This document shows positions 38,625 through 44,383 of a DNA stretch of 44,462 nucleotides, in pieces. A model generated the notes under the pieces. That model was not told where the DNA came from. It saw only the letters and a program-made list of their open reading frames with translations, and ran no database searches. Positions within the stretch are counted from its first letter, which is position 1, and every line of letters starts with the position of its first letter. Source of the DNA: Micavibrio sp. (GTDB lineage Bacteria > Pseudomonadota > Alphaproteobacteria > UBA9219); the NCBI GenBank assembly GCA_020718105.1, contig DYDA01000018.1, positions 1-44,462 on the forward strand. The letters run 5' to 3'. A program made the position numbers and the translations under genes.

Positions 38625-39389
38625 TTACATTTCGCTTTTCACACGCGCCAGCGTCAGCACATCAACCCGCGCTGCGCCTGCCGCCAGCAAGATTCGAGCG
38701 CATTCATTAACCGTCGCGCCCGAAGTCAACACGTCATCCACCAAAACAAGCTTAAGACCACGCACATCCACGCCGCGCCGCAGGGCAAACGCGCCCCGCA
38801 CATTGAGAAGACGCTGTTTTCTGGAAAAATGACCTTGAGGCGGTGTGGGGCGCGTACGCACCAAGGCATCGACAAGAACTTTTTTCCGAACAAGCCGCCC
38901 AAGCGCGATGGCCAAAAGGGCAGATTGATTATAGCGCCGTTTCAAAAGCCGCCAGCGATGCAAAGGGATGGGCATAATGCCATCAACTCCATCGGCGGCA
39001 TCCGGCCAAAAAGATTCTCCCGTTCGCGCAAGCCACTGCGCAAACAACGGCAAGCCATGAAGTTGGTCGCCGTGTTTAAAGCGCAGCACAAGCGGCTTGC
39101 TGGCTTCATCATACAAAAAGACGCTTCGCGCTGACGCATAAGAGGGAGGCGTTTCAAGACATACGCTACAAAGAGCGCCCTCCCCCATCGGCGAGTCAAA
39201 GGGCGCACCGCAACAAGGACAAAAAGGCTCGTTGATAAAATGGATAGCCTTCCAACACGTAGCGCAAAGAGTTTGATTTTCCGTGATAGGCGCGTCACAC
39301 CCCAAACATAAGGGCGGCATCAAAATATCCCAAAAAGGCCGCATCGCGCTACGCGAGACAGAAACAAATTGTTTAAAGAAAGAGGTCAT
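38625..39389 (-). CDS. comF: ComF-family phosphoribosyltransferase-like protein
   Basis: 254 residues. N-terminal zinc-finger segment with CLGCDAP, CATCWKA, CPCCGAP and CSVCLE, then a PRTase fold with MPIPLHRWRLLKRRYNQSALLA and the PRPP-like loop LVLVDDVLTSGATVNECARI. ComF supports DNA uptake during transformation, probably in late internalisation steps; in many bacteria its exact role is unsettled. No other competence genes are nearby. It lies downstream of the hscB-like gene on the same strand with a 15-base gap. Confidence 0.93.
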   Translation of the reverse strand: MTSFFKQFVSVSRSAMRPFWDILMPPLCLGCDAPITENQTLCATCWKAIHFINEPFCPCCGAPFDSPMGEGALCSVCLETPPSYASARSVFLYDEASKPLVLRFKHGDQLHGLPLFAQWLARTGESFWPDAADGVDGIMPIPLHRWRLLKRRYNQSALLAIALGRLVRKKVLVDALVRTRPTPPQGHFSRKQRLLNVRGAFALRRGVDVRGLKLVLVDDVLTSGATVNECARILLAAGAARVDVLTLARVKSEM

Positions 39390-39404: not shown

Positions 39405-40073
39405 TTACTTCACGCTTGCCAGATCGTCAGCATGAGCCCCTGTATAAGGCGCAAGAACCGTGCGCCTATCGCGCACATCTTTTAAAATAGACTCAAGCCC
39501 ATCGACTTCAAACAAAACGGCATTGGCAAGAGTCCAATTCTGGCTCCGTAACGCTTGCATCAAACTGACGACGCCCTGCTCCATCGCATGTCCCGCCTTT
39601 TGCGCGATACGATCACATTGAGCGGCCTTGCCTGCCCCTTCCAAATCACGGCGCAGTTCCGCAACCATCGGGTTTGTCCCATCGGCTTGCTCTGTTTCTT
39701 TTTCATGCAGCGCCAACCAATAACGCCCGCGCCGCAAAGGCTCACACAAGGTCTGATAGGCCTCCTCTATCGCCTCTTGCTGCTTGGCGGCATGGCCCCG
39801 TTCGCCCAAGCCCCGCAAAACAAAACGCTCTGGCTCAAGAGCGCGTTTATAAGCACTATATTGACGTTCTAGAAGATCGGAATCGACATCGATGCGGCGC
39901 TCAAGGCCAAGGCGCGCAAAATGATCCAAGGGACGAACAGGCTGGATCGTCCCACAATACTGGCAAAAAAGAGCCCGAAGCGACGTGCCCTTTTGGCAAA
40001 GCCAGCAACACGCCTCCCCATTGGCACCGTTAGAGGAAACGGTAAACTCATTAAACTCGATCACATTGTCCAT
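39405..40073 (-). CDS. hscB: HscB-like J-domain protein with zinc N-terminus, HPD motif degenerate
   Basis: 222 residues. Residues 23-40 are CWLC-x10-CQYC, a four-cysteine zinc pattern as in mitochondrial HSCB. The J-domain follows (DHFARLGLERRIDVDSDLLE ... EAIEEAYQTLCEPLRRGRYW), then an HscB C-terminal domain to about 205. HscB normally hands the scaffold IscU to HscA/Hsp70. The HPD tripeptide needed to stimulate Hsp70 is replaced by EPE at 80-82, so activity may be reduced or lost. It lies between the Rrf2 gene and comF on the minus strand. Confidence 0.8.
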   Translation of the reverse strand: MDNVIEFNEFTVSSNGANGEACCWLCQKGTSLRALFCQYCGTIQPVRPLDHFARLGLERRIDVDSDLLERQYSAYKRALEPERFVLRGLGERGHAAKQQEAIEEAYQTLCEPLRRGRYWLALHEKETEQADGTNPMVAELRRDLEGAGKAAQCDRIAQKAGHAMEQGVVSLMQALRSQNWTLANAVLFEVDGLESILKDVRDRRTVLAPYTGAHADDLASVK

Positions 40074-40151: not shown

Positions 40152-40562
40152 CTAACTTTTCTCTATTTTTTTATGCACAACATCGGCCAAAGTCACAGAC
40201 TTAAGATACTTTTGAACCTCTTCCCCCACCTTGCGCCACAAAGCATCCGTCAGCTTACGCGCCGTCTGCCCTTCTGCATAGGGCAGTGCCCTTTCGGTTT
40301 GTGAAGGATCATCGACCGCCACCACAATCTGATGAATGGAAATCGAGTCAGGCTCCCCCGCCAAAATGTACCCCCCACCAGGGCCGCGCATGCTTTTCAC
40401 AAGGCTCTTCTTTTTCAGTTTTGAGACCAACTGCTCAAGGTAAGACAGTGAAATCATTTGCCTTTTAGCCACATCGGCCAACGGAACCGGCCTTTCGTCG
40501 CTGTGACGGGCTATATCAACCATCGCCATAACGGCATGTCGCCCCTTTGTGCTAATTCTCAT
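40152..40562 (-). CDS. IscR-like Rrf2 regulator lacking all Fe-S ligands
   Basis: 136 residues. The winged HTH matches IscR nearly word for word: STKGRHAVMAMVDIA, PVPLADVAKRQMISLSYLEQ, SKLKKKSLVKSMRGPGGGYI. The C-terminal dimer helix (DALWRKVGEEVQKYLKSVTL) also fits. IscR holds a [2Fe-2S] cluster with three Cys and one His. This protein has no cysteine at all, and the His position is Asp106. It would therefore bind DNA in apo-form independent of Fe-S supply. It is divergent from the hydrolase gene and upstream of the hscB-like gene. Confidence 0.88.
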   Translation of the reverse strand: MRISTKGRHAVMAMVDIARHSDERPVPLADVAKRQMISLSYLEQLVSKLKKKSLVKSMRGPGGGYILAGEPDSISIHQIVVAVDDPSQTERALPYAEGQTARKLTDALWRKVGEEVQKYLKSVTLADVVHKKIEKS

Positions 40563-40796: not shown

Positions 40797-41468
40797 ATGC
40801 CTGAAGTTTTGTTTGCGGGGCCTGCGGGTCGTCTTGAAGGTCGCTATACGCCCGGAAAATCCCCGACAGCTCCCGTTGCGCTTATTCTTCACCCTCATCC
40901 TCAGCACGGTGGGACGATGAACAATAAGGTTGTTTATTCGCTCTTTAACGCCTTTGCTGAACGTGATTTCTCAACCTTGCGCTTTAATTTTCGCGGCGTA
41001 GGACGCAGTCAGGGAACTTATGACCGTGGTGAAGGGGAACTCAGCGATGCGGCTTCGGCTCTTGATTGGGTACAATCCATCAACCCCAACGCGCGGAGCG
41101 TATGGGTCGCTGGCTTTTCGTTTGGCGCATGGATCGGGATGCAGCTTTTAATGCGTCGCCCCGAAATTGAATCCTTTGTCTCGGTCGCGCCGCCCGCCAA
41201 CATGTTGGACTTTACCTTTTTAGCGCCCTGCCCTTCATCAGGCCTCATCCTTCACGGCGAAGCTGACGATATCGTGCCGGAACCCTTTGTGGCAAAACTC
41301 GTTACCAAGCTTTCGCACCAACGCGGCATTCATTTGGATTACCGCGTGATTCCAGAAGCTGGTCACTTTTTCACGCAACAAATTGATGAAATGACCACGC
41401 ACGTCGAAGGCTACCTTGATAACGCGCTGCTTCGCACCGCGCCGTCACAAATCGCGATGGCAAGCTGA
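40797..41468 (+). CDS. Alpha/beta hydrolase, COG2945-like
   Basis: 223 residues, cytoplasmic. Oxyanion region LHPHPQHGGTMNNKVVYSL, nucleophile elbow GFSFGAW, acid in HGEADDIVP and histidine in PEAGHFF complete the triad. The first part (FNFRGVGRSQGTYDRGEGEL) is typical of this family. Substrate unknown. In alphaproteobacteria this family commonly neighbours the Rrf2 regulator and cysteine desulfurase genes; here only the regulator is present. Confidence 0.88.
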   Translation: MPEVLFAGPAGRLEGRYTPGKSPTAPVALILHPHPQHGGTMNNKVVYSLFNAFAERDFSTLRFNFRGVGRSQGTYDRGEGELSDAASALDWVQSINPNARSVWVAGFSFGAWIGMQLLMRRPEIESFVSVAPPANMLDFTFLAPCPSSGLILHGEADDIVPEPFVAKLVTKLSHQRGIHLDYRVIPEAGHFFTQQIDEMTTHVEGYLDNALLRTAPSQIAMAS

Positions 41469-41515: not shown

Positions 41516-41881
41516 ATGACGACAACGCAACAACAACCAAACGATCTTATTCGGGAAGAAGACGAACGCATCGTTCGCCTTATTAAAAGAGGCATGTTGC
41601 TTGTCGCCTTTGGCGCGGCGGCGACTGTTTTTGTCACGCCTATCAATGGCTTTTCTATCGGGGCTTTCGCCTTAGCCGCGACGAATTATGCGGCTATTTC
41701 GGCCATAGAGGCTTTGGATGCCTCTAATCAAGAAAAGGAACAGCAACCCCATTTTAGAGCGCGCTGGAAAAAAGCTCTCTTGCATCCTTTTCAAAAACCG
41801 ATCACGGTGCAGCGTCCCGCCCGTCATCGGCGCGGGAACGGAAGTCGTGTTGGGAACGCTAAGCGGCAACCCCAACCGTGA
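41516..41881 (+). CDS. Small membrane protein, function unknown
   Basis: 121 residues. A charged N-terminus (DLIREEDERIVRLIKRGM) precedes one or two hydrophobic segments at about 28-65 (LLVAFGAAATVFVTPINGFS, then IGAFALAATNYAAISAIEAL). The last 45 residues are basic and read over the 3' part of anmK on the other strand, a 210-base convergent overlap. AAAAGGAGAG precedes its ATG. The N-terminal 80 residues look real; the tail may be read-through after loss of an original stop. Confidence 0.65.
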   Translation: MTTTQQQPNDLIREEDERIVRLIKRGMLLVAFGAAATVFVTPINGFSIGAFALAATNYAAISAIEALDASNQEKEQQPHFRARWKKALLHPFQKPITVQRPARHRRGNGSRVGNAKRQPQP

Positions 41882-43042
41882 ACGTACAGCCAGATAGGCA
41901 AAGGCTTCAGCTTCGATCGCATCGCCATTCCAGCCTAATTCATCAACGGATTTAATCGGCAGCCGCGTTTTATTCGCAAGCCAGCGCATCATCGTCGCAT
42001 TATGACGGCCACCACCTGCGATAAAAATCTCACGCGGCGCGGCAGGCACAGCCTCAAGCCCCTTTGCAATCGCGGCCACCGTCATCATGGTGAGCGTCGC
42101 CGCGCCATCCTCTACTGTCATCGCAAAAGATACATTGTCATCATCCGTCATTGCGAGCGGAGCGAAGCAATCCAGCTGCGCCGCGTCAGCGGCGCATAAA
42201 ACTCTTATGCCTCGCAGACGCTCGGCTGACTGGATTGCCACGTCGGCGCTTCGCGCCTCCTCGCAATGACGATTTAGGGTTGGCACAAAATCCGCAAAGA
42301 CATCGCGATCCAAAGACTTTGGCGGCTTTTGCGTAAAAAACGGATGCGCCAAAAACGCGGCAACGTGTGCCTCATCTGGCACGCCTTGCGCGGCCATGGC
42401 GCCATCACGGTCACAGCTTTGCCCCGCATGACGCAGCATCCAGTCATCAATCAGCGCGTTGCCTGTCCCCAGATCAAAAGCCAGAATCTCATCATCACCC
42501 TCACCGCCAATCCACGTTATGTTCGACACGCCGCCGATATTGATGATCGCGGTAGGCTTAGGCAGCGCCGCCGCCAAAGCGCGATGATACAGCGGCACAA
42601 GAGGTGCGCCTTGCCCGCCCGCTTTCACATCGGCTGTGCGAAAATCATTCACGACATCAATGCCCGTCAGCTTTGCAAGCAACGCGCCGTCGCCAAGTTG
42701 AATCGTCTCACGCTCCGCCGGATTATGCCAAATCGTCTGGCCATGAAACCCGATGAGATCAAGGGCAGAAGGCTCAAGCCCCTCTTGCTTCAAGAAAGCG
42801 GCAACAGCCTTTGCATGAAGCGTTGTCAGCTCGTCCTCAACCTCGCGCACCAAAGGATCCGTCGTTCCCTCACGCTTGCCAAAACAGGCGCGAAGACGCT
42901 CCCGAAACGCTGCCTCGTACGGCATAAACAGAAAGCCCAGCGGCTTGACATGGCTGCGCCCGTCCGTTTCAATCAGGGCAACGTCCACGCCATCCAGCGA
43001 TGTGCCGCTCATCAGGCCTATGGCACGATAGAATGGGGTCAT
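41672..43042 (-). CDS. anmK: Anhydro-N-acetylmuramic acid kinase with repeat-encoded insertion
   Basis: 456 residues. It phosphorylates and opens 1,6-anhydroMurNAc in peptidoglycan recycling. Family motifs are intact: IGLMSGTSLDGVDVA, LIGFHGQTIWH, DFRTADVKAGGQGAPLVPLY, IINIGGVSNITW, LAFDLGTGNALIDDW and IFIAGGGRHNATMM. Residues 258-299 are translated from a palindromic repeat (42145-42271) and are absent from normal AnmK. The family's usual end MTGG is at 406-409; 47 further residues continue to a stop inside the convergent gene. Minus the insert, 367 residues would remain, the normal length. ATG 43042 starts the conserved region; the open frame beyond overlaps tyrS. Confidence 0.92.
   Translation of the reverse strand: MTPFYRAIGLMSGTSLDGVDVALIETDGRSHVKPLGFLFMPYEAAFRERLRACFGKREGTTDPLVREVEDELTTLHAKAVAAFLKQEGLEPSALDLIGFHGQTIWHNPAERETIQLGDGALLAKLTGIDVVNDFRTADVKAGGQGAPLVPLYHRALAAALPKPTAIINIGGVSNITWIGGEGDDEILAFDLGTGNALIDDWMLRHAGQSCDRDGAMAAQGVPDEAHVAAFLAHPFFTQKPPKSLDRDVFADFVPTLNRHCEEARSADVAIQSAERLRGIRVLCAADAAQLDCFAPLAMTDDDNVSFAMTVEDGAATLTMMTVAAIAKGLEAVPAAPREIFIAGGGRHNATMMRWLANKTRLPIKSVDELGWNGDAIEAEAFAYLAVRSRLGLPLSVPNTTSVPAPMTGGTLHRDRFLKRMQESFFPARSKMGLLFLFLIRGIQSLYGRNSRIIRRG
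42145..42271. repeat. Composite palindromic repeat, copy E, inside anmK
   Basis: Ends CCGTCATTGCGAG and TCGCAATGACG, with the same GCGGCGCATAAAACTCTTAT-type core as copies C and D in inverted orientation. In the anmK frame it reads RHCEEARSADVAIQSAERLR onward to LDCFAPLAMT with no stop. Comparable in kind to Rickettsia palindromic elements within genes. Confidence 0.9.
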
Positions 43043-43141
43043 TTTATCCGTTTTTCGTTCATTTACGCCCTTTTCATCGGGGCAAAGTCGCATTAATCTG
43101 CCTTTTCTCCACTTAAACCACAAGATGCAAAAGAGAACCCC

Positions 43142-44383
43142 ATGACAGCCGTTAAATCCGATTTTTTGAACCTGATGATTGAGCGTGGCCACGTCCACCA
43201 ATGCTCTGACCTTGAGGCGCTGGACGCCGCCGCGTGCAAGGGCGTGATCACGGGTTATATCGGGTATGACGCGACGGCGACCTCGCTGCACGTTGGCAAC
43301 ATGGCATCCATCATGATGTTGCGCCGCCTGCAGCAGACAGGGCATAAACCCATCGTTCTTGTTGGCGGCGGCACAACGAAAGTAGGCGACCCCTCGTTTA
43401 AAACGGAAAGCCGCCCGATGCTGACGGACGAGCAGATCGCGCAAAACATCGCAGGCATCAAAAAAGCCTATAACAAGTTTCTGACCTTTGGCGACGGCGC
43501 GATAGACGCCACGCTTGTGAACAATGACGAGTGGCTGGGCAAGCTGGAATACCTTCCCTTCCTGCGCGAAGTCGGTCGCCATTTCACCATCAACCGCATG
43601 CTCAGTTTTGACTCCGTCAAGCTGCGCCTTGAGCGTGAGCAACCGCTCACGTTCCTTGAGTTCAATTACATGATCATGCAGGGCTATGACTTTGTTGAGC
43701 TGCACAGGCGCTATGGCTGCACGCTTCAGATGGGTGGATCGGATCAATGGGGCAACATCATCAACGGCGTTGAGCTTGGGCGGCGCATGGCTAACTATGA
43801 CCTTTACGCCCTTACCACGCCACTCATCATGACTTCATCAGGCGAGAAGATGGGTAAGACCGTCTCCGGCGCGCTGTGGCTGAATGAAGATCGCCTCAGC
43901 CCCTATGATTACTGGCAATACTGGCGCAACACCGAAGACGCCGACGTCACGCGCTTCATGAAAATCTTCACCGACATGCCTTTGGATGAAATTGAGCGCC
44001 TTGGCAAACTGAAGGACGCCGAAATCAACGAAGCCAAAAAGATTCTGGCGTTTGAGACGACCAAGCTTTGCCATGGCGAGGCGGCGGCGCTGGAAGCCGC
44101 AGCGACTGCCAAAGCCACATTCGAGGGCGGCGGCATCGGCGCGAACCTGCCTATCTATGCCATGGCGGGCGCGAGCGTCGCTATCGTGGATGCGCTGGTA
44201 GGGCTTGGTTTTGCCGCATCCAAGGGCGAAGCGCGGCGTTTGGTTGAAGGCGGCGGCGTGCGACTGAATGATGCGGTTGTCAGCGATGTCACGGCAAGCC
44301 TTTCAACCGCCGACCTAACCCAAGACGCAACCGCCCGCCTTAGCGCAGGCAAAAAGCGGCATGGCGTTGTGAAAAAAGGGTGA
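43142..44383 (+). CDS. tyrS: Tyrosyl-tRNA synthetase
   Basis: 413 residues. Class I synthetase: HIGH-like [16 protein letters not shown] before it, tyrosine/tRNA recognition [15 protein letters not shown]-like KMGKT, and a C-terminal S4 RNA-binding domain (about 345-410: [20 protein letters not shown]). It starts [16 protein letters not shown]. Divergent from anmK with 99 bases between starts, the usual alphaproteobacterial arrangement. Complete. Confidence 0.96.

Follow-up and report, generated by a model that had tools for sequence, protein, structure and literature searches.

Is an HscB homologue without the HPD tripeptide a sequencing error, a gene on its way out or a protein with another function? 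This question was raised by hscB*, an open reading frame in a 44,462-nucleotide contig of Micavibrio sp. (DYDA01000018.1), referred to here as the window. An earlier note on this DNA had described the frame as an HscB homologue with a mitochondrial-type zinc motif and EPE in place of HPD, in a reorganised or decaying Isc module. We analyzed the protein, its distribution and the history of its locus.

Domain organization and altered residues of hscB*

The frame of hscB* is open on the minus strand from 40073 to 39405 (Table 1). Its scores fell below the curated NCBIfam cut-offs for HscB (PRK05014, 47.8 bits against 189; TIGR00714, 34.4 against 46.75), and Pfam gave a weak DnaJ match alone (13.4 bits). 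The top PDB match in phmmer was human mitochondrial HSCB (3bvo; E 8.7e-12), with an alignment which spans the cysteines. A profile of 23 alphaproteobacterial relatives matched human HSCB at E 5.7e-47 across zinc ribbon, J-domain and C-domain. The AlphaFold2 model (mean pLDDT 87.7) is predicted to possess the J-type domain and the C-terminal helical domain of the HscB fold, and its best Foldseek match was also 3bvo (TM 0.81 on the target) followed by HscB of Vibrio and E. coli (4it5 and 1fpo). Both features noticed earlier in the translated frame were found. Cysteines 23, 26, 37 and 40 form a CxxC-xn-CxxC motif immediately N-terminal to the J-domain, which is predicted to bind metal, and EPE aligns to the HPD of HscB.

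Table 1. Features of hscB* and its neighbours in the window
Feature	Position	Strand	Basis or remark
hscB*	39405..40073	-	222 aa: zinc ribbon, HPD-free J-like domain, three-helix C-domain
C23xxC26-x10-C37xxC40 zinc-ribbon motif of hscB*	39954..40007	-	invariant in 57/57 HPD-free rows
J-like domain of hscB*, residues 49-123	39705..39929	-	PDB sequence match and AlphaFold2
EPE of hscB*, residues 80-82, at HPD site	39828..39836	-	sequence and alignment
C-terminal helical domain of hscB*, residues 135-207	39453..39671	-	AlphaFold2 and alignment
iscR ortholog (Rrf2 family), cysteine-free	40152..40562	-	position and sequence; TIGR02010 148 bits, cut-off 207.55
comF-family gene	38625..39389	-	same strand, 15 bp 3' of hscB*
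abH, alpha/beta hydrolase	40797..41468	+	divergent from iscR; conserved edge of isc locus
anmK ORF	41672..43747	-	conserved isc-locus flank
tyrS	43142..44383	+	conserved isc-locus flank

Comparison with known proteins distinguished what is shared from what is lost. Human mitochondrial HSCB/HSC20 resembles hscB* in its Cys4 ribbon, J-domain, helical C-domain and CW.C...FC..C pattern. However, the human protein possesses HPD and works with mtHSP70 and ISCU, while hscB* lacks both HPD and the IscU hot spots and comes from a genome without ISC. E. coli HscB (1fpo) shares the J-like and C-domain fold with the predicted model of hscB*, but its solved sequence contains no zinc ribbon and retains HPD along with L92, L96 and F153. 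According to passages of PMC3040723, these three residues carry IscU binding in E. coli. At their positions hscB* has a gap, A138 and G192, and its first C-domain helix is four residues short, without the positions of E. coli L92/M93.

These differences were found across the HPD-free proteins. The residue comparison mixes rows of a class survey with named loci, so that some genomes enter it twice, A. cavernae (G083) and a few with HPD at the least; a second copy in G057 (L196), a fragment (L029), L193 and L194 were dropped. The histidine of HPD is present in 115/115 HPD rows and in 0/57 HPD-free rows, where the first position of the loop varies among D, A, N, T, S, E and L. The L92 position is a gap in 56/57 HPD-free rows against leucine in 96/115 HPD rows, and the F153 position is G or R in 42/57 against Y or F in 100/115. 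Sequence entropy, calculated without identical rows, was compared between the HPD-free and the HPD-type zinc proteins. It was higher in the HPD-free set for two segments, the HPD loop (1.05 against 0.75) and the opening helix of the C-domain (2.29 against 1.78). All seven remaining segments (zinc ribbon, helices I, II and III and the rest) were more conserved in this set, an overall excess which is expected because the set is phylogenetically narrower. The two exceptions are what would be expected if precisely the contact surfaces for Hsp70 and IscU had been set free. Arginines 70 and 77 in helix II and 83 and 87 after the HPD loop remain basic in 88-100% of HPD-free rows.

According to PMC8215388, ATPase stimulation was lost in all systems tested when H or D of HPD was replaced, and a review passage describes HPD as a feature of every J-domain (PMC9596805). 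Together these statements suggest that hscB* is no usual Hsp70 co-chaperone. Judged from such published residue data, it has presumably lost both the stimulation of Hsp70 ATPase and the binding of IscU. No paper on an HPD-free HscB was found in the open-licence literature searched (titles, abstract starts and passages).

Distribution and origin of the HPD-free form

A match to hscB* was found in 37 of 59 related genomes. Within the order of the window, 29 of the 33 genomes examined possess the gene; those without it are three incomplete genomes and G006, a 99% complete family member with no detectable copy, so hscB* is dispensable somewhere. In the order copies (28 full and one fragment) the four cysteines are always present and HPD never, its place being taken by DPQ, DPE, DPA, NPE, SPE, EPE and others. 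Retention of HPD in close relatives had been posed beforehand as a test of the earlier note; HPD is missing in all order members, and a lone mutant or sequencing error is thereby rejected. At an end of contig 207 in G001 (L029), hscB* occurs as two partial copies in inverted orientation, probably through an assembly artefact.

In the class survey, 275 of 385 genomes gave a match and about 100 contained HscB proper. Rows were considered down to about 37 bits, and those weak matches whose frames measure about 380 aa resemble DnaJ. With one duplicate (L196) dropped from the family count, HPD with zinc motif was found in 65 rows from 37 families, HPD without zinc motif in 30 rows from 20 families and the HPD-free form with zinc motif in 34 rows from 5 families. 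Two rows had neither HPD nor zinc motif (L193 from G303 and L194 from G187, the latter on a short contig); both come from small-genome members of the class. A collection of named genomes gave 66 loci, 22 from the window's order, 24 of Azospirillum type and 20 others. All 46 loci from the order and of Azospirillum type have the zinc motif and no HPD, and HPD is present in 20/20 of the others. The nearest relative of hscB* in this collection, at 93%, is from a MAG labelled Micavibrio aeruginosavorus. The Azospirillum-type loci include Azospirillum brasilense, oryzae and lipoferum and one labelled Roseomonas genomospecies 6; Azospirillum hscB* gave no match in the plasmid records searched.

The zinc motif is common among HPD-type proteins (65/95 rows; 37/54 sampled alphaproteobacterial families with HPD-type HscB), so it is no peculiarity of hscB*. 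Judging from these rows, the motif has a long history and a wide distribution in Alphaproteobacteria. Zinc-type HscB with HPD was also found in the isc loci L301-L310, whose MAGs bear Binatia, Deltaproteobacteria and other labels, and the ribbon is therefore not confined to Alphaproteobacteria. The possibility that all bacterial HscB share the motif, raised in the earlier note, holds for these MAGs and for the majority of class rows but not for E. coli and Vibrio, where the profile match to the PDB sequences begins past the zinc region. Its suggestion that hscB* bears on the N-terminus of mitochondrial HSCB survives in a more general form: the distribution is compatible with inheritance, but nothing is special about hscB* in this respect. 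The sequences support, and do not prove, that mitochondria inherited the zinc motif from alphaproteobacterial HscB. HscB was dropped as a marker in one study since it gave no clear monophyletic groups, according to a passage of PMC10631705.

To understand the relationship between the HPD-free proteins, an HscB tree was constructed without the HPD columns, and they formed one clade with support 100/100. In a tree of abH, tyrS and anmK from 19 loci, all HPD-free loci fell on one side of a branch with SH-aLRT 95; two changes were required in a larger tree of neighbour genes, many rows of which were gappy. A first count had suggested separate losses of HPD in the order, in Azospirillum and in G133, an idea set aside as the HscB tree and the smaller neighbour-gene tree group all of them. 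These two trees agree with a single old event passed down to all three, to which a shared transfer of the HPD-free locus is a possible alternative. The zinc-type HscB proteins of ISC-bearing Dongia, Stella and Zavarzinia share locus and zinc motif with hscB*, and that of Dongia is among its nearest relatives in the tree; unlike hscB*, all three possess HPD and lie between iscA and hscA. hscB* truly descends from a zinc-type alphaproteobacterial hscB.

Selection was estimated from six pairs of genomes, of which four were computable and two saturated. The closest pair (G000, the window genome, and G005) gave dN/dS 0.059, with 0 in the zinc region, 0.105 in the J-like domain and 0.052 in the C-domain. 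Values of 0.046 (G015/G008), 0.096 (G000/G002) and 0.139 (G018/G022, with 0.34 in its C-domain) were found in the other pairs. With its open frame and this low value in the nearest pair, hscB* shows neither of the marks of a pseudogene, a broken frame or relaxed selection.

Loss of the ISC system around hscB*

ISC-bearing relatives have the gene order tyrS-anmK-abH<>iscR-cysDes2-iscS-iscU-iscA-hscB-hscA-fdx, cysDes2 being a cysteine desulfurase. The part from abH to hscA was found in 7/7 extended HPD loci (G033, G304, G293, G119, G188, G125 and G297), with fdx next in the six which reach that far (the G119 stretch stops inside hscA); the flank genes were not all found in every fetched stretch, and an eighth HPD locus, L208, was too short upstream. 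In 12/12 extended HPD-free loci, hscB* occupies the same place without iscU, iscA and hscA. What else remains differs between groups. Azospirillum-type loci retain iscR-cysDes2-hscB*-fdx (G377, G083 and named loci), with cysDes2-hscB* only in G206 and G301; G133 retains cysDes2-hscB*-fdx and most order members cysDes2-hscB*. The window and its genus retain iscR-hscB*, without cysDes2 beside hscB*.

In the named collection, HscA plus IscU and/or IscA lies beside hscB in 20/20 HPD loci, and none of the three lies beside the HPD-free gene in 46 loci. In the class survey, Hsp70 and IscU/A are adjacent in 63/66 HPD rows with zinc motif and in 0/34 HPD-free rows with zinc motif, four of the latter contig-cut on one side; these association counts are not independent because the HPD-free zinc rows form one clade. 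An exception to the pattern is G303, where HPD and zinc motif are both missing from HscB yet IscU and an Hsp70 are nearby. On the HPD side, the isc neighbours are missing in G353 (L164, HPD with zinc motif), two rows with HPD and zinc motif have flanks too short for neighbour reading, and five further HPD rows without zinc motif show no Hsp70 in the examined flank, one flank being short.

The neighbouring IscR-like protein, described earlier as cysteine-free, indeed contains no cysteine. The triad of cluster-ligand cysteines of IscR is present in 0/6 order loci and in 39/39 other loci. The window locus thus encodes two ISC-linked proteins which have lost their ISC-specific residues.

The earlier note saw no iscS, iscU, hscA or fdx in view, and at curated cut-offs this extends genome-wide. 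HscA, IscS and fdx_isc were each over cut-off in 0/33 order genomes, and TIGR01999 iscU in 0/6 order genomes tested. PF01592 matches reached at most 90 bits in order genomes against 155-185 in ten full-length IscU matches elsewhere in the class. HscA and IscU were also below cut-off in G377, G206, G301, G083 and G133; a 131-134-bit iscU match in G377 and G083 lies in a frame of about 390-400 aa and is probably NifU. The window genome, which thus offers hscB* neither HscA nor IscU, contains a suf operon in which sufB, sufC, sufD, sufS, sufU and sufT stand under an Rrf2 regulator with cysteines, and hscB* lies outside this operon. The sole NifU_N protein found in this genome is SufU (TIGR01994, 135.8 bits, cut-off 92.5). 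In G000-G005, a single IscS-model match exceeded the SufS level, at 79 bits in G000. This genome also encodes DnaK and DnaJ. Its SufT (L092:9212-9913) appears to carry a fused DUF559-like domain at the N-terminus, and between sufB and sufC lies a second frame with a similar sequence.

G000 also encodes an 842-aa protein (L091:4310-6838, contig 37) in which an Hsp70 ATPase domain at the N-terminus is followed by about 480 residues without Pfam match; its identity is 51-57% in four other order genomes tested. This Hsp70-like protein is not favoured as a partner of hscB* since it is present in G006, which has no hscB*, and since only DnaK-level matches to it were found in 15/15 tested genomes outside the order, including four of the family f54 with hscB*.

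In PMC10631705, ISC is placed in the alphaproteobacterial ancestor and its loss in many SUF-bearing lineages, a picture which the hscB* locus matches as a still visible trace of that loss. Of the two words first applied to the module, reorganised stands, as iscS, iscU, iscA and hscA are gone from a conserved locus in which hscB and iscR remain. Decaying does not, in view of purifying selection and of one clade found in Azospirillum and in 29 of 33 order genomes.

Possible function of hscB* and alternative readings

hscB* has probably taken on a new job. We consider it fairly likely that it is an ISC relic retained for an Hsp70- and IscU-independent role, likely as an adaptor in Fe-S or sulfur handling. 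According to this proposal, iscS, iscU, iscA and hscA would have disappeared with hscB* staying at the isc locus, and SUF with SufU would have become the cluster-assembly system. With the HPD trigger and the IscU-holding residues gone, hscB* would no longer be an Hsc20 co-chaperone. It would have kept the zinc ribbon, the J-like fold flanked by basic residues, and a C-domain in which positions of its own are conserved. The ribbon and J-like body may dock a partner, and the remodelled C-domain may hold a client other than IscU. A SUF or desulfurase component as the partner is our guess, SufU/SufB being the best candidates, or the neighbouring cysteine desulfurase where present.

Other readings of the same evidence have to be weighed. 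Pam16/Tim16 is a J-fold without HPD kept by selection, a membrane import motor subunit paired with Pam18. It resembles hscB* as an HPD-free J-fold under selection, but has no zinc ribbon or HscB C-domain. By analogy, hscB* might dock on DnaK or another J-protein as a negative regulator, occupying the J-site without triggering hydrolysis. The kept J-like body with its basic residues and the presence of DnaK and DnaJ in G000 would agree with this, but the HPD-loop letters vary widely as if the site were free, the operon has no J-protein partner, and the contacts of H and D with Hsp70 reported in PMC8215388 would be lost. We regard such a regulator as unlikely. An ordinary HscB, in which an unusual but working substitute for HPD lets hscB* act on DnaK and SufU, has in its favour the intact fold of the predicted model and the presence of SufU as IscU homologue; the many letters at the HPD position and the shortened IscU-contact helix make it highly improbable.

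The zinc site of SufU accepts or protects sulfur for SufS, and the Cys4 site of hscB* could similarly serve cysDes2, which directly precedes hscB* in most order and Azospirillum loci and retains its catalytic cysteine loop in every locus inspected. Against this relay, the window genus has no cysDes2 beside hscB* and no such desulfurase was found in G000-G005, so cysDes2 cannot be an obligate partner. Moreover, Cys4 ribbons are usually structural, and the ribbon, present also in many HPD-type HscB proteins, predates the HPD change. Such a relay seems distinctly unlikely, a little more so than the regulator. Slow decay, with hscB* as a left-over gene, would explain the missing partners, the IscR without cluster cysteines and the absence from G006. 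It is rejected as scarcely credible by conservation and purifying selection: the order copies keep the four cysteines intact, 24 Azospirillum-type loci retain the gene, and dN/dS is 0.05-0.14 in the four computable pairs of six.

Beyond the adaptor role which we favour, hscB* may, more tentatively, be the founding bacterial example of a J-fold family outliving its Hsp70 and client. HPD and client site would have been discarded together when ISC was dismantled, and zinc ribbon and J-body would now act as an Hsp70-independent SUF-type cluster or sulfur factor in two or more alphaproteobacterial groups, cultured Azospirillum among them. The occurrence of hscB* in Azospirillum makes it genetically testable. 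The widespread alphaproteobacterial tetracysteine N-terminus makes mitochondrial inheritance testable, though it is also seen outside the class. A clade-wide, selected HPD-free J-fold which outlives Hsp70 and client would be a natural experiment on the other uses of J-domains.
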